From: an uncultured Clostridium sp.
GTDB lineage: Bacteria > Bacillota_A > Clostridia > TANB77 > CAG-508
DNA length: 5,915 nt
Reading direction: 5' to 3'
Assembly: GCA_947382445.1 (NCBI GenBank)
Contig: CANCZH010000090.1
Coordinates: 1-5,915 of the forward strand
How positions within the stretch are numbered: the stretch's first letter is position 1; every line of letters begins with the position of its first letter. The position numbers and the translations under genes are program-made. Positions 1 to 5,915 of the stretch are shown here, piece by piece. The notes beneath the pieces are model-generated. The model was not told where the DNA came from. It saw only the letters and a list, made by a program, of their open reading frames with translations, and made no database searches.

Positions 1-304
1 CGAAGTATGGTAAAAGTCTTGTTTCTAACATTCTACAATAACGCTTGTATGTAGTAGGAGCAAGTTCTTTTGAACCATAATCTCTTTTCCATATCTCAGT
101 AAATTCAGAAAATCTAAGAGACTTACCATCAACAACTAAACCATTTTGTACTTCGGTAACAAACTTTGCTAGTTCAACTTCTGCATCTTTTTTAGTTCCA
201 TGTACTGTCTTTCTATGTATCATAGGATTTCCATTTAGGTCAAAACCTTCAGATACTGTTAACCTGTAACTATTTTTTCCTCTTTTTTCTATACTCCCAG
301 CCAT
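1..304 (-). CDS. int: Tyrosine-type phage integrase, N-terminal part (runs off left edge)
   Basis: The leftward frame starts at ATG 304-302 (MAGSIEKRGKNSYRL) and stays open for 101 codons to the window edge, so only the N-terminal part is present. Residues 1-55 look like the arm-site DNA-binding domain of Tn916/phage-type integrases: a basic strand-rich start, then the pattern RKTVHGTKKDAEVELAKFV. Residues about 64-101 (SLRFSEFTEIWKRDYGSKEL, then APTTYKRYC) match the start of the SAM-like core-binding domain. The catalytic domain with the R-H-R-Y residues lies outside, so activity cannot be judged. A strong ribosome site, AAGGAGGTGA, sits 8-9 nt before the ATG and fixes the start. The family integrates and excises the element by site-specific recombination; the attachment site would be expected to the left, outside the window. 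Local GC, about 35% in a sampled line, is higher than in the two genes to the right. Confidence 0.93.
   Translation of the reverse strand, partial: MAGSIEKRGKNSYRLTVSEGFDLNGNPMIHRKTVHGTKKDAEVELAKFVTEVQNGLVVDGKSLRFSEFTEIWKRDYGSKELAPTTYKRYCRMLETRLLPYF
258..263. promoter_or_regulatory. Isolated GTTAAC copy inside the int coding start
   Basis: A single GTTAAC lies within int codons 14-16 (Arg-Leu-Thr), about 105 bp downstream of the int operator pair. It could be an auxiliary operator or a chance match: the core is six bases long, so one or two copies are expected by chance in a window this AT-rich. Confidence 0.25.
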
Positions 305-362: not shown

Positions 363-394
363 GTTAACAAAAACATTATATAATAATAGTTAAC
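363..394. promoter_or_regulatory. Paired GTTAAC operators at the int promoter
   Basis: Two perfect GTTAAC palindromes lie at 363-368 and 389-394, 26 bp start to start. The first is part of a longer perfect palindrome, TTGTTAACAA (361-370). Read in the int direction, the second copy lies in the promoter spacer 3 nt after the -35 box and the first lies at the expected transcription start. An imperfect further copy, GTTTTCAAAA, follows at 406-415. The same two-site arrangement recurs in front of xis and of the zinc-finger gene, so these are likely repressor or activator sites. Confidence 0.6.
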
Positions 395-403
395 AAAATG
401 CAA
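375..403 (-). promoter_or_regulatory. Predicted sigma-A promoter of int
   Basis: On the minus strand a perfect -10 TATAAT (380-375) is preceded, with a 17-nt spacer, by TTGCAT (403-398), which matches the -35 consensus only in its TTG. Transcription would begin near 368, giving a leader of about 64 nt before the int ATG. The operator copy at 389-394 is inside the spacer, so a bound protein would be expected to block polymerase. Confidence 0.6.
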
Positions 404-427
404 TAGTTTTCAAAAAGAAACTTAAAA

Positions 428-448
428 ATTTTATTCGTATAATAAAAT
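428..448. repeat. AT-only inverted repeat between int and the NTPase gene
   Basis: The arms ATTTTATT (428-435) and AATAAAAT (441-448) form a perfect 8-bp inverted repeat around CGTAT. It holds a TATAAT (438-443) with no -35 at a suitable distance. Having only A-T pairs, it would be a weak hairpin. It may be a protein site or chance in an AT-rich stretch. The rest of 404-486 shows nothing else recognisable. Confidence 0.3.
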
Positions 449-486
449 GTAGAAAATTGTCGAAAGTTGTAATATCAATGAACTGC

Positions 487-515
487 TAGACTTTTTACAG
501 AAAATGTGATATGAT
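487..515 (+). promoter_or_regulatory. Predicted extended -10 promoter of the NTPase gene
   Basis: TAGACT (487-492, four of six matches to TTGACA), a 17-nt spacer and TATGAT (510-515) with a TG dinucleotide one base upstream (507-508) make a reasonable extended -10 sigma-A promoter. The start site would be near 522 and the leader about 50 nt. No GTTAAC motif lies anywhere between 395 and 573, so this promoter appears to be outside the control that acts on int and xis. Confidence 0.5.
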
Positions 516-573
516 TTGACAAAATTAGTATACTAAAGAAAAATAAAAAAATTGTATTTTTAAGGAGAAATCT

Positions 574-3500
574 ATGGGTATACTGATTAATTTATATAAC
601 TTAATATTAAAGTTGAAAAATAAGAAAGAATACGAATCTTTGGCACCAGTATCCAATATAAGGAAAAGTGCAACTTTAAATATGCTAATTAATACTATGG
701 CAGATGAAAAAAATTATAATGTTGCATTATCAGGAAAGTATGGAGCTGGAAAAAGTAGTTTAATTAAAAGTTTTTTTTATGGAATAAGAAAAATAATTTA
801 CAAACCTTTATATATATCGTTAGGAATGTTAGGGTTAGAAGAAAATGAAATTGATGTAAATGAATTTGGACAAGAAATAGAAAAAAGCATAATACAGCAA
901 ATAATATATAAGGAAAAAACTACTAAATTACCAGATTCAAATATAAAAAGGGTTTCTAAATTAAAAAAAAGAAATGTCTTATTCATAATGATTGTAATAA
1001 TTATTATAATTTCATTAAAAATAAATTCTTTATATATAGAAAATTATAATGAGGAAATAAAAATAATAATCGAAAAGTTTCTACTTCTTAATATATGGTA
1101 TAAGATAGGTATTGGAATAATAGCATTAATCATAATTTTGTTGATTTCAAAATTATTTGCTAAGTTCCTAAAAAAAGTCGATATAAAAAATATAAAATTT
1201 AATTTTACTAATACAGAAATAGAGATAGAAAAAACAAGTACAGAATCATTGATTAATAAATATATGGATGAATTGGTATATTTTTTTAGTATGACTGATT
1301 ATAATATTGTAGTTATAGAAGATTTAGACAGATTTTTAGAAAAGGAAGAAATTAAAGATAGAGTTTTAATAATATTTCAAAAATTAAAAGAATTAAATCA
1401 GATTTTAAATTCTTCTAAACAAATTAAAAGAAAAATTACTTTTTTATATGTTGTTAAAGATGATTTATTTAAAAATGAAGAGGAAAGAACTAAATTTTTT
1501 GATGCAATAGTTCCTGTAATTCCTGTAATGTCAAACTATAATTCTTATGCTGAATTAAAGAATAGGTTTGAAGTTTATAATATTGATGACAAAATAATGC
1601 AAGATATTTCACCATATATTAATGATTATAGAGTTATTAAAAATCTAAAAAATGAATATGAACTGTATCAAAAGGAAATAGAAGGAAACGAAATAGTAAA
1701 AGAGAAACAATTAGCAATGCTTACACTTAAAAATATAAGACCTAGTGAGTATGAATGTTTATTGAACAATAGAGGATTTATCTATGAAATTATAAATCAG
1801 AAACAAGAATATATAGATAAAAAAGCACTGAATATAAATGAAAAAATCGAAAAAAATGAGAAAAGAATAAAGGACCTTAATAATGAAAAGTTAAAAAACT
1901 TTCAAGAATTAAAGAGATTAGCTGTTAGTAGTTTATATGGCAAATATGCTAGTAGGAGTGTAAGCGGATCATTATCAGTAGAACAATTTTTTAGTAATAG
2001 TATGAACTATGATAAAATAAAAAATACAACTATCTATTTAAATGATCCAAGAGGATATTGTTTCAGCGAGTCAGATATATTTGAGTATTTTGGAGGAAAG
2101 GATAAATTTCTAGAAAGAGCAAATAATATTGCTAAAGAAAAAGAAATAGATGTTGAAAGATTAATTGTTGAAAATGAAAAACTAGAAAAAGAAAAAGAAG
2201 ATTTAGTCAAAAAGCCATTCTATGAATTGATTGGGGATAATGAAAGCATAGAAATAGATGATGAATTTATAAAAATGTTATTAGAGAATGGATATATTGA
2301 TGAAAGTTACCAAGACTACATGTTTAAATTTAAAGAAACTAAAGACATAAATAAGAATGATTATACTTTTATTTCTAATGTAAGGCAATATAGAGGGACA
2401 AAATACGATTATAGCATTAGTAATGTAGAAAAAGTCGTTGAAGAATTGAACAGTAGTTATTTTGGAACGGAGGCAATTCTAAATTATAGTGTTATAGACT
2501 ATTTAATAACATCAAATAGTGATGAGTTAAAAGAGAAACAAGATAATTGTATTAATATGCTTACAGAATTAAATGAAAATAAAGAAAATTTTATATTAGG
2601 TTTTGTTAAACATAAACAAAACAAAGAGACTTTTTTAGCTATGCTTCATAAAAAGAATAAAAATACTATATATGAGATGCTACTTAATAATAGTGAAAAA
2701 AATGAGAAAGTCGAAACAATAATAAAAAATGTCTTAAATATTCCTGAAATATTAGATTTTGAAAAAACTAATAAATATATTCGAGAGCATATTGAAAGTA
2801 AAAGAAATTTCTCGAATTGGGTTAAATTAAATGATAATATAAAAGAATCATTAAATGTATTAGATGTTAAATTTAAAGAATTGGAAGAAAATGATACTGA
2901 GTTTTTAGAATTTATATATAATAAAAATTTATATAGATTAAATTCAGAAATGATTAGATTGCTATTTCAAAATAAAGGCTATTCTGAGCAGGAGTTTGAA
3001 GAAAAAAGTTTAAGTATTATTATGCATGATACAAATTTAGAAACAATGAAAAAATATGTAGAAAGCAATAAAAGGGAATATATAAATAATTGCTATTTAG
3101 AAACTACAGGAGCTAAAAACGATATTAAAGATATAATTGAATGCTTGAATAATTGGGATTTAGACATTGAAAATAAAAGGGAAATAATAAAAAATATTTA
3201 TGGACAAGTCGAAGATATAAGAGATGTAGATACTGACTATTACGATGAAATTATGGTAAGAAACAAAGTAAATCCAACTTGGGAAAATTATTACTATTAT
3301 TACATTAATAGTGATGAGATTACTGATGTATTATTGCAAAATATAGAACTAAATATAGAGAATATAAAGAAACAAAGTGTTAGTAGCATTAAAATGTCAG
3401 AAGAAGATGAAACGAAGTTTAAGAATTTTAGGGGTAAAATAGCCAGAAATAACAAACTTAATATTAGTACTTACAAGCAAATAATACCAACATGTTGGAT

Positions 3501-4131
3501 TATATTAAACAAAATAGAAGAAAATGAAATAGAGGACGAAAGACTAAAGACACTAGTAAGACATAAGGTAATAAAATTAAATGATGATAATTTACAAGTT
3601 TTATATAATCAAGTTCCAGAGGTTATAGATTTATATATAAATAATAATATACAATATTTTATTAACCATATTGAAGACTTTACATTAAATGAATTTATGA
3701 TATGTGATATAATAAAATCATCTTGCATAAAATTTAGGGACAAAAATAAAATAATAGAAATTATAAATAAAGAGTACATAAATGTAGAATCAATAAGACT
3801 TATAATTGATAATTATAGTCAAAATAAAATAAGTAAAGTAAGCGAAGAACTAAAGGAAAGGATATTTAGTTCAAAAGTAGAATTAAATTATAAACTAATG
3901 TTTTTAGAGAAAGAATTAGATAAAAATAATTCAATCGAATTAATTGATAAGTATTTAAGATTATTACCTATACCATATAAATATATAGCCAACTACGAAG
4001 AATATTCTAAACCATTTTCTATACAAAAAACAAAGAGTAGTGAAAAAATGTTAGAGAATTTGAAAAATAAAGGATTTAAATTTACTAAATCGATTAAGAA
4101 AAATAGAATTATTATATATAATAAAAAATAG
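574..4131 (+). CDS. YobI-like membrane-anchored P-loop NTPase (1185 aa)
   Basis: The start is ATG 574, with AAGGAG at 562-567, 6 nt upstream. After a short leader comes the family signature YESLAP (20-25), then Walker A SGKYGAGKSS (53-62). Two hydrophobic helices follow (about 134-149 and 174-195), inserted before Walker B NIVVIEDLDRF (244-254, acidic pair E249-D250). A sensor-like strand FLYVVKDDLF (290-299), the block FFDAIVPVIPVMSNYNS (308-324), DYRVIKNLKNEY (351-362) and KNIRPSEYECLLNNRGFIY (386-404) all fit my knowledge of the YobI-like family, named after Bacillus subtilis YobI. Coiled coils are likely at about 409-450 and 530-560; the rest, to 1185, is helix-rich and very acidic/lysine-rich, without recognised domains. 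Membrane segments inside the P-loop domain resemble KAP NTPases. The biochemical role is unknown; its place as lysogeny-region cargo suggests phage defence or exclusion (inference). Sampled GC is about 20%, lower than int or xis. Confidence 0.85.
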   Translation: MGILINLYNLILKLKNKKEYESLAPVSNIRKSATLNMLINTMADEKNYNVALSGKYGAGKSSLIKSFFYGIRKIIYKPLYISLGMLGLEENEIDVNEFGQEIEKSIIQQIIYKEKTTKLPDSNIKRVSKLKKRNVLFIMIVIIIIISLKINSLYIENYNEEIKIIIEKFLLLNIWYKIGIGIIALIIILLISKLFAKFLKKVDIKNIKFNFTNTEIEIEKTSTESLINKYMDELVYFFSMTDYNIVVIEDLDRFLEKEEIKDRVLIIFQKLKELNQILNSSKQIKRKITFLYVVKDDLFKNEEERTKFFDAIVPVIPVMSNYNSYAELKNRFEVYNIDDKIMQDISPYINDYRVIKNLKNEYELYQKEIEGNEIVKEKQLAMLTLKNIRPSEYECLLNNRGFIYEIINQKQEYIDKKALNINEKIEKNEKRIKDLNNEKLKNFQELKRLAVSSLYGKYASRSVSGSLSVEQFFSNSMNYDKIKNTTIYLNDPRGYCFSESDIFEYFGGKDKFLERANNIAKEKEIDVERLIVENEKLEKEKEDLVKKPFYELIGDNESIEIDDEFIKMLLENGYIDESYQDYMFKFKETKDINKNDYTFISNVRQYRGTKYDYSISNVEKVVEELNSSYFGTEAILNYSVIDYLITSNSDELKEKQDNCINMLTELNENKENFILGFVKHKQNKETFLAMLHKKNKNTIYEMLLNNSEKNEKVETIIKNVLNIPEILDFEKTNKYIREHIESKRNFSNWVKLNDNIKESLNVLDVKFKELEENDTEFLEFIYNKNLYRLNSEMIRLLFQNKGYSEQEFEEKSLSIIMHDTNLETMKKYVESNKREYINNCYLETTGAKNDIKDIIECLNNWDLDIENKREIIKNIYGQVEDIRDVDTDYYDEIMVRNKVNPTWENYYYYYINSDEITDVLLQNIELNIENIKKQSVSSIKMSEEDETKFKNFRGKIARNNKLNISTYKQIIPTCWIILNKIEENEIEDERLKTLVRHKVIKLNDDNLQVLYNQVPEVIDLYINNNIQYFINHIEDFTLNEFMICDIIKSSCIKFRDKNKIIEIINKEYINVESIRLIIDNYSQNKISKVSEELKERIFSSKVELNYKLMFLEKELDKNNSIELIDKYLRLLPIPYKYIANYEEYSKPFSIQKTKSSEKMLENLKNKGFKFTKSIKKNRIIIYNKK

Positions 4132-4151
4132 CACATAAAGTGCTATTTTTT
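4123..4151. terminator. Shared bidirectional terminator of the convergent genes
   Basis: TAGCAC (4129-4134), a 5-nt loop ATAAA, and GTGCTA (4140-4145) form a perfect stem, extended by A6 (4123-4128) pairing with T6 (4146-4151). Read from either side it is a GC-containing hairpin followed by a U run, so it should stop transcription both ways. The TAG of the NTPase gene (4129-4131) and the TAG of the leftward gene (4145-4143) sit at mirror positions in the stem. Confidence 0.9.
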
Positions 4152-5183
4152 ATTAGAGTCTAGCCATTTATCAAAATCCTCATAAGTTTTCTTCTCATTT
4201 CTAATGTCATCCATAAATTTTTTAGCTTGCTTTTTCCAATTTTCATAATCTTTTTTATAAACTTCTATATCAGGATTACGTTTAACTAACATAGCCTTTT
4301 TAGAATACATTTTGCGATATTTACCATAAACTTTATCGTTTTCTTGTTTTATTCTTTGAGCAATTTGATTGCCTATATCTTTACAAGTCTGACTTCCTTT
4401 AAATAAATTATTACAATAATTAACTCTTAGGTTATCTGTTATAAAGTATTTACCACAATTTTTACATTTTTTTATTATAAAATTATTTTCTTCCACAAAT
4501 TGAAATAATGTAATATAAAGTATAGTGTAAACACTAGAACTAGTTGCACTAATGTTAGAATATACATCAGCAAAATGTAGCCCTGTTGTAAAAAACTCTA
4601 ATAGTTTTTGTTCACTATTTTCAAGATATTCAGGAACAATCTTATAATTAAAAGCATTATCTATTTGAAAATCAGTAACATATGGTTTTAATGTTTTAAA
4701 ATGTGATGTGTAATAAATGTAAAATCTCATCTTATTAGTCATTTTTCCGGAATTTTCCACACTATGTTTATTGAAAATATAGTCAACAAATTTCGAGTAA
4801 AGTTTTTGAACTTTTTTTGCATCTTTTTTGATTGGCTCAAAATATTTTTGGGCTAATGTTTCTATTTCATTGTAGTTATATGACTTGTCAAGCTTTAATT
4901 TTTTAATATCAGTTTCTTCAAAGTATTTAAGATAAGATGTAAAAAACTTAGTAAACCAAACAAAATACTCATTAAAATTAGAAAAATCTGTATTTAAAAA
5001 GTTAATTATATTTGTTCCAGTTCGATAAAATGATAAATGATCTTTAATAAAAAAATGACAATTAGAAAGTTCATCTAAAGTATAGTAATGTAATTTGTCT
5101 AGATCTCCATATAATAAAGTTACAAGACTAAGATTTTCTCTAGTATTAATGGAAATATGTATTTCACTATTAATTTTATTCAT
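4143..5183 (-). CDS. Zinc-finger protein, DUF6076-like; candidate element regulator (346 aa)
   Basis: The start is ATG 5183-5181 with GGAGG (5192-5188) 4 nt upstream. Residues 1-235 are mixed helical sequence rich in Tyr, Phe and Lys, with no recognised enzyme motif. Residues 238-278 carry a clear metal-binding pattern: C240-x2-C243-G-x2-F, R253, YC257, C267, then G271 and a basic tail (NQIAQRIK). This order resembles the treble-clef CGNR zinc finger of putative transcription regulators and, from memory, the C-terminal part of DUF6076 proteins; the family name is uncertain. The last 70 residues are lysine-rich and helical. There is no signal peptide or membrane segment, so it is probably cytoplasmic. 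It is divergent from xis across 149 bp containing operator-like GTTAAC sites, which is the usual position of a CI/Stl repressor. DNA binding and repression are inferences; an unrelated cargo function is possible. Sampled GC is about 22%. Confidence 0.8.
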   Translation of the reverse strand: MNKINSEIHISINTRENLSLVTLLYGDLDKLHYYTLDELSNCHFFIKDHLSFYRTGTNIINFLNTDFSNFNEYFVWFTKFFTSYLKYFEETDIKKLKLDKSYNYNEIETLAQKYFEPIKKDAKKVQKLYSKFVDYIFNKHSVENSGKMTNKMRFYIYYTSHFKTLKPYVTDFQIDNAFNYKIVPEYLENSEQKLLEFFTTGLHFADVYSNISATSSSVYTILYITLFQFVEENNFIIKKCKNCGKYFITDNLRVNYCNNLFKGSQTCKDIGNQIAQRIKQENDKVYGKYRKMYSKKAMLVKRNPDIEVYKKDYENWKKQAKKFMDDIRNEKKTYEDFDKWLDSNKK

Positions 5184-5192
5184 AATTCCTCC

Positions 5193-5234
5193 GTTAACAG
5201 TTTATAAAATTGCCAAAAGTTAACTTGCTATCAA
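5193..5234 (-). promoter_or_regulatory. Paired GTTAAC operators and weak promoter of the zinc-finger gene
   Basis: Perfect GTTAAC copies lie at 5219-5224 and 5193-5198, again 26 bp start to start; the latter touches the ribosome site (GGAGG, 5192-5188). On the minus strand TTGATA (5234-5229, five of six matches to -35) precedes the first copy by 4 nt, as in the int and xis promoters. The -10 is unclear: TATAAA (5206-5201) is 22 nt from it, too long, while closer hexamers such as TTTTAT (5209-5204) fit poorly. The operator pair is clear; the exact promoter is not. Confidence 0.5.
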
Positions 5235-5250
5235 AATAACCTATAAAGTA

Positions 5251-5279
5251 TTTACAAGGTTAACTATACACAATATAAT
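5251..5279 (+). promoter_or_regulatory. Predicted sigma-A promoter of the xis-replisome operon
   Basis: TTTACA (5251-5256, five of six matches to TTGACA), a 17-nt spacer and a perfect TATAAT (5274-5279) make the best promoter in the window. Transcription should start near 5286, giving a leader of about 47 nt before the xis ATG. Confidence 0.75.
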
Positions 5280-5291
5280 ACATTTGCTAAC
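5259..5291. promoter_or_regulatory. Paired operators at the xis promoter (GTTAAC and GCTAAC)
   Basis: GTTAAC (5259-5264) lies in the spacer 2 nt after the -35 box; GCTAAC (5286-5291) lies at the predicted start site, 27 bp further on. The int promoter has the same order: -35, GTTAACTAT, TATAAT, about six bases ending in TTT, then GTTAAC. The match in both sequence and position points to the same DNA-binding protein at both promoters. Confidence 0.6.
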
Positions 5292-5332: not shown

Positions 5333-5530
5333 ATGGAATTACAAAAAGTTCAAAGAACAACACTAACAATGAAAGAAGCAGCAGAGTATTTAGGAATTTC
5401 TTATTGGTTAGTTAATCAATTAGTAAGAAGAAAACAAATACCATGCTCAAAAGTTGGTGGCAAATATTTATTTAGAGTACAAGTGCTAGATGAATATTTA
5501 GAAAAAATGGAACAACAATCTATAAGCTAG
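5333..5530 (+). CDS. xis: Excisionase-type winged helix-turn-helix protein (65 aa)
   Basis: The start ATG 5333 follows a strong ribosome site GGAGGTGA (5321-5328). The 65-residue product has the layout of the excisionase/HTH_17 family, a MerR-like winged fold: helix-turn-helix LTMKEAAEYLGISYWLVNQL (11-30), then the wing RRKQIPCSKVGGKYLFRV (32-49) and a short C-terminal helix DEYLEKMEQQ. Such proteins bend DNA at attachment-site arms and steer the integrase toward excision; some relatives act only as transcription regulators. It is the first gene of a rightward operon: the replisome gene starts 28 nt after its stop. Its promoter carries the paired operators, so it is probably silent in the integrated state. 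The role as the partner of the int gene here is inferred from element layout. Confidence 0.8.
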   Translation: MELQKVQRTTLTMKEAAEYLGISYWLVNQLVRRKQIPCSKVGGKYLFRVQVLDEYLEKMEQQSIS

Positions 5531-5558
5531 ATTGCAAGGAAAGAGGGGAAAGGAGGAT

Positions 5559-5915
5559 ATGTATAATTTACAATGGTTAAAATTAGAAATTAAAATATTT
5601 TCAAACAGAAAAATTCAAATATTACTAAAAGAAACTGATGGCGACACATATTTTAGAGTATGGATTCAGTTAATAACTATTGCTATGGAATGTAGTAGTG
5701 GAGGAAAGCTAGTAATAGGAGAAAATACACCAATGACAATAGAAAACTTTTCAAAGATTATGGGAAAGTCTAAGAAAAAAATGGAGAAAATTATTAAAAA
5801 ATTTCAAGAATTAAATATGCTAATTATAGAAGAAGGAGCATACAAAATTAAAAATTGGAGTAAATACCAAAGTGTTGAAACAAACGAAAAATATCAAGAA
5901 CAAAATAGAATAAGA
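5559..5915 (+). CDS. Phage replisome organiser, N-terminal part (runs off right edge)
   Basis: The frame is open from ATG 5559 to the window edge, 119 codons. The sequence matches the phage replisome organiser N-terminal domain: an opening of the form x-W-x-K-L (LQWLKLEIKIF, 4-14), then GDTYFRVWIQLITIAM (28-43), a glycine turn (SSGGKLVI), a winged-helix part TIENFSKIMGKSKKKMEKII (60-79) and the hallmark end KIKNWSKYQS (96-105), which corresponds to the family's N-W-x-K-[HY]-Q. These proteins bind the phage origin and recruit the host helicase loader; the C-terminal half, and possibly an origin, lies outside the window. AGGAGG (5551-5556) is only 2 nt from the ATG, unusually close; GAGGGG (5543-5548), 10 nt away, may be the working ribosome site. 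TTG 5532 in the same frame is a less likely start. Confidence 0.88.
   Translation, partial: MYNLQWLKLEIKIFSNRKIQILLKETDGDTYFRVWIQLITIAMECSSGGKLVIGENTPMTIENFSKIMGKSKKKMEKIIKKFQELNMLIIEEGAYKIKNWSKYQSVETNEKYQEQNRIR

Follow-up and report, generated by a model that had tools for sequence, protein, structure and literature searches.

The window analysed here, the whole 5,915-nucleotide stretch of contig CANCZH010000090.1 from an uncultured Clostridium sp., carries a gene of the DUF6076 family beside genes for integration, excision and replication. An integrase and an excisionase, both traits of integrative mobilizable elements (IMEs), are present; judged by gene content, the window appears to comprise the regulatory end of a mobile element in its integrated state, one that is mobilizable-element-like and has variable cargo. 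The DUF6076 gene, called the zinc-finger gene in the initial annotation of this DNA, lies divergent from xis, and the hexamer GTTAAC recurs in pairs at the int, xis and DUF6076-gene promoters. The genes, with their profile matches in brackets, are the following.

2..304, minus strand: int, tyrosine integrase, N-terminal 101 amino acids (aa), cut at the window end (PF14659, 7.8e-7)
574..4131, plus strand: cargo gene for a 1185-aa P-loop NTPase, YobI-like and resembling the anti-phage protein Tmn (PF20693, 1.3e-86)
4143..5183, minus strand: DUF6076 gene, 346 aa, proposed autoregulated repressor with four invariant cysteines (PF19553, 1.6e-11; cysteines and tree counts, below)
5333..5530, plus strand: xis, excisionase of 65 aa (TIGR01764, 2.7e-13; PF12728, 1.6e-12; PF09035 Tn916-Xis, 6.4e-5)
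5532..5915, plus strand: rep, phage replisome organiser N-terminal family, cut at the window end (PF09681, 3.1e-21; TIGR01714, 1e-17)

Operator sites and promoter geometry

GTTAAC begins at positions 258, 363, 389, 5193, 5219 and 5259 of the window, and GCTAAC at 5286. The coordinates and start-to-start distances reported in the initial annotation (26 bp for 363/389, 26 bp for 5193/5219 and 27 bp for 5259/5286) were all correct on recount. Six copies of GTTAAC, a number that none of 200 shuffles reached, compare with an expectation of 1.28, and the degenerate word GYTAAC, counted on both strands, gives 13 matches against 3.46 expected (reached by one shuffle in 200). The window's combination of two exact pairs at 26 bp with a GYTAAC pair at 27 bp did not arise in any of 3000 dinucleotide shuffles; three of them produced one or more exact pairs at 26-27 bp, and none produced two such pairs or three GYTAAC pairs. 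When shuffling was limited to the two intergenic stretches, two pairs were never obtained either. The promoter features, all read from the sequence, are listed with any further support; the palindromic sites carry no strand.

363..368, no strand: int operator 2, GTTAAC, beginning at about +1 of the int promoter (int pair in 23 of 29 GTTAAC-class loci)
375..380, minus strand: int -10 box TATAAT, between the two operators
389..394, no strand: int operator 1, GTTAAC, in the -35/-10 spacer
398..403, minus strand: int -35 box TTGCAT (near-constant in the consensus of the 26-bp class, 12 loci)
5193..5198, no strand: DUF6076-gene operator 2, GTTAAC abutting the Shine-Dalgarno sequence (consensus GTTAACGGAGGAAT in 13 loci)
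5219..5224, no strand: DUF6076-gene operator 1, GTTAAC 4 nt behind TTGATA
5251..5256, plus strand: xis -35 box TTTACA
5259..5264, no strand: xis operator 1, GTTAAC, in the spacer (pair conserved at xis)
5274..5279, plus strand: xis -10 box TATAAT
5286..5291, no strand: xis operator 2, GCTAAC, where many relatives have GTTAAC

The int promoter, on the minus strand, has a 17-bp spacer, with site 1 lying 3 nt past the -35 box and site 2 starting 7 nt past the -10 box, that is, at about +1. The xis promoter has the same architecture, again with a 17-bp spacer, site 1 2 nt past the -35 box and site 2 at about +1, so that the layout previously described for these two promoters is borne out by the sequence. 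At the DUF6076 gene the pair does stand behind a TTGATA, as had been noted (complement of 5229-5234), and the Shine-Dalgarno sequence is the complement of CCTCC at 5188-5192; by sequence reading, no clear -10 box was seen behind the TTGATA in the window. The initial annotation had further remarked that GTTAAC is missing from the two central genes, in which one or two copies were expected. The site list agrees with the absence, and the expectation was too high: at the background of about 0.12 GTTAAC per kb measured outside promoters in the 81 loci described below, some 0.5 copies would be expected, and the absence is therefore uninformative.

A leader of the form CTCCCACCCATAGG(T/C)AT(G/A)C..GAAAGGAGGTG (305-350 in the window, minus strand) precedes int and is conserved in many loci, even where the cargo faces the other way. 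Folding of the window copy was no better than that of shuffles.

Recurrence of the pairs in related elements and host genomes

Relatives were collected by scanning species genomes for matches to Xis, and 80 of 87 loci were kept, giving 81 with the window. The titles of these 80 name uncultured Clostridia, Bacilli, Lachnospiraceae and Erysipelotrichaceae, many with isolate labels containing animal names. The usual gene plan is int on the minus strand, variable cargo, DUF6076 on the minus strand, xis, rep, an IstB/DnaC-like gene and a second variable region; DUF6076 lies upstream of xis and divergent from it in the window and in most relatives with this region in view.

Related elements had been expected to share the pairs at int and xis, and rather than being absent the pairs are conserved, in 42 of 81 loci at xis and, at int, in 23 of the 29 loci of this GTTAAC class that have int in view. 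At xis, where sites with at most two mismatches, 26-30 bp apart and within 115 nt upstream of the gene were scored, 28 pairs are exact, 10 have one mismatch and 4 have two. The int gene is in view at 57 loci, and none of the 28 that fall outside the GTTAAC class has an int pair; seven of these hold a lone GTTAAC in the scored stretch. Among the six class loci that lack the int pair, L048 has a truncated int, and the other five (L018, L027, L030, L033 and L050) have a same-strand gene, cargo or DUF6076, ending 39-52 nt from int, and int is therefore probably co-transcribed with the upstream gene there. For the 26-bp type of int promoter (12 loci) the consensus is CTATTGCATTTTGTTAACTATTATTGTATAATATTTTTGTTAACAA. 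An int gene directly behind DUF6076 or same-strand cargo was also seen in L113, L175, L179, L184 and L189; where this arrangement occurs, regulator and integrase may be carried on one transcript.

The pairs are nearly restricted to these promoters. Of the 62 exact pairs counted across the 81 loci, 60 occupy the int promoter or the DUF6076-xis region; the two exceptions (L029 and L034) are near the left ends of the retrieved stretches, where int may be cut off. Outside promoter regions the density of GTTAAC is equal in both classes of loci (60 copies in 515.5 kb and 52 in 451.5 kb).

Clostridial repressors such as those acting at Rex-type operators recognise partly similar A/T-rich palindromes, and a host regulator could in principle read GTTAAC, the element having joined a host regulon. 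Exact pairs with 20-24 bases separating the sites were counted in 195 genomes of one host family. They occur at 38 places in 26 genomes, a count that proves nothing by itself because a reversed control pattern was commoner. A place was assigned to an element if element genes lay nearby (26 loci checked), if its coordinates adjoined a DUF6076 match or if an int pair had been scored on the same contig. By this assignment 24 of the 38 lie at promoters of these elements; the other 14 show no element gene match in their retrieved flanks, 10 of these being internal to long open frames. The exact pairs away from elements thus look like chance occurrences, and a host regulator as the reader of the sites seems barely credible.

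Operator type and the DUF6076 tree

Operator type tracks DUF6076 and not Xis, Rep or Int. The fewest changes of operator state needed on each gene tree number 1 for DUF6076 (69 rows), 10 for Xis (78), 13 for Rep (78), 10 for Int (53) and 11 for the IstB/DnaC-like gene (57); when the same 45 loci are used throughout, the counts are 1, 6, 7 and 8 for DUF6076, Xis, Rep and Int. With 100 label shuffles per tree of the 45 loci, means of 14.5-14.8 and minima of 10-11 changes were obtained. The Xis, Rep and Int trees fall below these levels, so that these genes also hold some signal, as would be expected of linked genes. On the DUF6076 tree 39 GTTAAC rows group together, at a fork whose support, 92/89, is not full, and the spacing of the xis pair also tracks the DUF6076 clade (27 bp in a clade of 30 rows, 29-30 bp in one of 7).

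Natural swaps point in the same direction. In L002, L003 and L013, Xis is 95-97% and Rep 93-99% identical to the window's, DUF6076 is 30-33% identical, and the xis pair is absent; L002, the only one of the three with int in view, lacks the int pair as well, with an Int N-terminus 100% identical to that of the window. Conversely, L015, L016 and L019 have a DUF6076 78-80% identical to the window's and a Rep only 56-59% identical, and they keep the pair. On a long DUF6076 branch, L032 and L033 carry the same altered pair, GTTAAT-N21-ATTAAC, at both the DUF6076 and the xis promoters; the operators at the two promoters therefore changed together.

These data bear on a possible role for Xis or Rep as the GTTAAC-binding co-regulator. 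Some small excisionases act as co-regulators, and Xis here is an HTH_17/Tn916-Xis-like DNA-binding protein whose gene adjoins the sites. Given that near-identical Xis and Rep proteins accompany pair-less xis promoters, and that the Xis tree needs 6-10 changes and the Rep tree 7-13 where the DUF6076 tree needs one, we regard such a role as highly improbable. Because operator type does not follow their trees, Xis, Rep and Int are all unlikely readers of the sites.

Linkage is harder to set aside. Another factor might read GTTAAC, with DUF6076 merely lying in the same contiguous block as the promoters: the int promoter, cargo, DUF6076 and the xis promoter are contiguous, and the block as a whole can be different in elements that have near-identical Xis and Rep. 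Few cargo proteins are common to both operator classes (4 of 42 shared protein pairs, from the locus pairs L020/L066 and L028/L037). Against linkage, the cargo varies, and DUF6076, or a different protein, c34, is the gene that recurs in the block. L020 and L066 share a three-gene cargo block (49-73% identity) and differ in operator class; such cross-class sharing counts only modestly against pure linkage. The operators changed in step at two promoters in L032 and L033, and a reader encoded outside the block would need to be common to many hosts. On balance, we consider linkage alone an unlikely explanation.

The association was followed into the wider host family, where a search with the window's DUF6076 gave matches in 80 of 195 genomes of the nearest family. 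Eighty of the listed DUF6076 places were examined, and removal of one short and seven duplicate rows left 72 new rows and a tree of 141. In the divergent region a pair with at most one mismatch was found in 8 of the 72, all on one side of the midpoint-rooted tree, a split with weak support (78). On the other side, with 86 rows, no such pair was found; L013, L133, L136 and L147 on that side have a pair when two mismatches are allowed.

We therefore consider it likely that the DUF6076 protein is the element's autoregulated master repressor, binding GTTAAC palindromes at the int, xis-rep and own promoters. It would bind the palindromes directly, probably as an oligomer bridging two sites 26-30 bp apart. 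The paired sites at int and xis flank the -10 box, and by occupying the -10/+1 region the protein would shut off the int promoter, the xis-rep operon and its own promoter; release of repression would turn on integrase, excisionase and replication together. A DUF6076 protein that binds the sites and activates, or that mainly counts copy number or sets directionality instead of repressing, has in its favour that the direction of control cannot be read from sequence. Steric repression typically employs sites in a promoter spacer, at about +1 and on the regulator's own ribosome-binding site, and the sites here lie in the spacer, at about +1 and on the regulator's own ribosome-binding site. We therefore hold activation or counting to be very unlikely and favour repression.

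A number of findings weigh against the DUF6076 repressor. The pair at the regulator's own gene is less general than those at int and xis, which lowers our confidence slightly: a 26-bp pair, exact or with one mismatch, occurs there in 13 loci only, and other class loci have one GTTAAC near the start of the gene and a one-mismatch copy further away (36 bp in L020, for example). The suggestion in the initial annotation that a single regulator, the product of the zinc-finger gene, controls all three promoters is thus supported by the tree counts and swaps without being fully general. Between the two sites, a -10-like hexamer is present in every one of the 23 int pairs, in 36 of the 40 xis pairs scored and in just 4 of 13 pairs at the DUF6076 gene, by a test that is weak because seven A/T-rich hexamers were accepted. 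L009 and L047 retain the int pair despite a same-strand open reading frame upstream (192 and 25 nt away). The DUF6076-xis region of L013, a member of another DUF6076 clade, contains two copies of GCTAAC at a distance of 29 bp. In the 141-row tree, seven rows on the GTTAAC side lack the pair, and a looser automatic score gives 5 state changes instead of 1. The contiguity of the block could by itself yield much of the tree signal, and cargo protein pairs with at least 40% identity number 4 (from 2 locus pairs) across operator classes vs 38 within a class. Among the 18 loci of three other classes, no word is common to the int and xis regions as clearly as GTTAAC, the nearest being AAAAATAGC in 8 of 10 loci of one class. 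Finally, no recognised DNA-binding domain was found in the protein, DUF6076 being the sole Pfam hit above cut-off (no helix-turn-helix (HTH) family in Pfam up to E 10 or in NCBIfam up to 0.01), and its structural model has no significant fold match in the PDB.

The DUF6076 family, known systems and cargo

The window's DUF6076 protein matches PF19553 at 44.7 bits (cut-off 23.5), and cysteines 240, 243, 257 and 267 are conserved without exception in 70 selected proteins (the window's, 30 from databases and 39 from the loci). Its AlphaFold2 model is confident, with a predicted local distance difference test score (pLDDT) of 90.3 and a predicted template modelling score (pTM) of 0.77. The FlhDC regulator was considered as a structural relative and rejected, as its hits were low-ranking (E 1.3-3.3) and provide no evidence. 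In the searched library, which is limited to Creative Commons-licensed PMC papers, DUF6076 is not named, nor was GTTAAC found together with an excisionase and a repressor.

Prophages and integrative and conjugative elements are controlled by autoregulated master repressors such as lambda CI and ICEBs1 ImmR, which are HTH proteins. As in those circuits, the DUF6076 gene is divergent from an excision/replication operon, operators overlap both promoters, the integrase appears to be under the same control, and autoregulation is suggested, here by the sites. In the window and its relatives the same operator word stands at the regulator, excision and integrase promoters, with variable spacing at the regulator gene. 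Unlike CI and ImmR, DUF6076 has no recognised HTH, and its putative operators are paired 6-bp palindromes 26-30 bp apart. The window's Xis resembles Tn916-type excisionases (PF09035, 23.5 bits, cut-off 22.9), whereas gene order and regulator differ from those of Tn916. IMEs whose regulation is described in passages of PMC5704250 respond to regulators of helper elements. The elements studied here resemble the IMEs of those passages in their integrase, excisionase, MobA/VirD2-like relaxase (in some relatives) and restriction-modification-like cargo, and would differ in having an element-encoded DUF6076 switch in place of helper-element regulators. ABATE-CGNR proteins (Jann_2411) are described in passages of PMC2954205 as having an N-terminal domain followed by a C-terminal four-cysteine treble-clef zinc finger, proposed to bind DNA in a dimer. 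By eye only, DUF6076 is similar to the proteins of that account, with an N-terminal domain without known relative and then a four-cysteine finger; there was no Pfam CGNR (PF11706) or ABATE hit up to E 10, and none among the structure matches listed, which is no exclusion. If the proposed role is correct, it would provide a function for a family unnamed in the literature searched, name the switch of widespread gut-bacterial elements with anti-phage-like and restriction-modification-like cargo, and offer sequence-defined natural operator swaps with which to dissect a new DNA-binding domain.

In 66 of the 80 DUF6076 places examined in the host family (a count that includes the 7 duplicates removed from the 141-row tree), the neighbours inside the retrieved flank include an excisionase, an excisionase-like small gene, a tyrosine integrase or a serine recombinase. 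Nine of the others have an N5 gene only, and five have none of these, three of them at contig ends. Among neighbour representatives, N9 encodes a serine recombinase (PF00239/PF07508) and the 69-aa N10 belongs to HTH_17; N11 gave no match in Pfam. In other DUF6076 clades, ATTGCAA (14 of 14) and ATACTATA (6 of 6) are repeated at the same place, which is suggestive only, as the screen compared many words with mononucleotide shuffles. The chances seem to us about even that DUF6076 proteins form a large superfamily, so far undescribed, of zinc-finger proteins that act as master repressors in mobile elements. Its members would sit at recombination modules of at least three architectures (tyrosine integrase with Xis and Rep; a small HTH_17-like gene with a divergent tyrosine integrase; a serine recombinase), with clade-specific operator words (GTTAAC, possibly ATTGCAA, ATACTATA and others) and cassette swaps that produce distinct 'immunity' types.

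In a distant DUF6076 clade (L053, L054, L062, L064 and L080), TGTCGGGTTT stands at all five int promoters, and the similar TGTACGGTTT recurs in the DUF6076-xis region of four of these loci. This word is a candidate operator for a further class. The c34 protein, of 291-294 aa and with a CxxC-type motif, takes the place of DUF6076 in four loci (L063:6356-7234, L066:6874-7758, L078:5981-6859 and L079:6928-7803), possibly a non-homologous regulator swap. The promoter regions of the c34 loci lack GTTAAC pairs, and that of L061 is, by eye, of the same type.

The match of the window's cargo NTPase to the PADLOC Tmn model reaches 6.2e-54 over residues 16-481, and the full-length integrase of the relative L001 matches PF00589 at 7.2e-25. 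The interval between int and DUF6076 is a cargo hotspot whose genes vary and include Tmn/YobI-like NTPases (cluster c73, also in L019) and AAA_21 proteins (c15). The second variable region, after the IstB/DnaC-like gene, holds restriction-modification-like genes, identified by sequence reading without profiles. A relaxase cluster, c4 (representative PF03432, 4.1e-38), is present in 24 of the 81 loci, with none in the window, itself a fragment. Twenty-five loci encode a conserved 207-aa protein, cluster c5 (L018:9870-10493), whose winged-helix match (PF13463, E 0.002) does not reach the cut-off. In many of them its gene comes after the DnaC-like gene; by eye, these are mostly loci in which the c4 relaxase was not seen.

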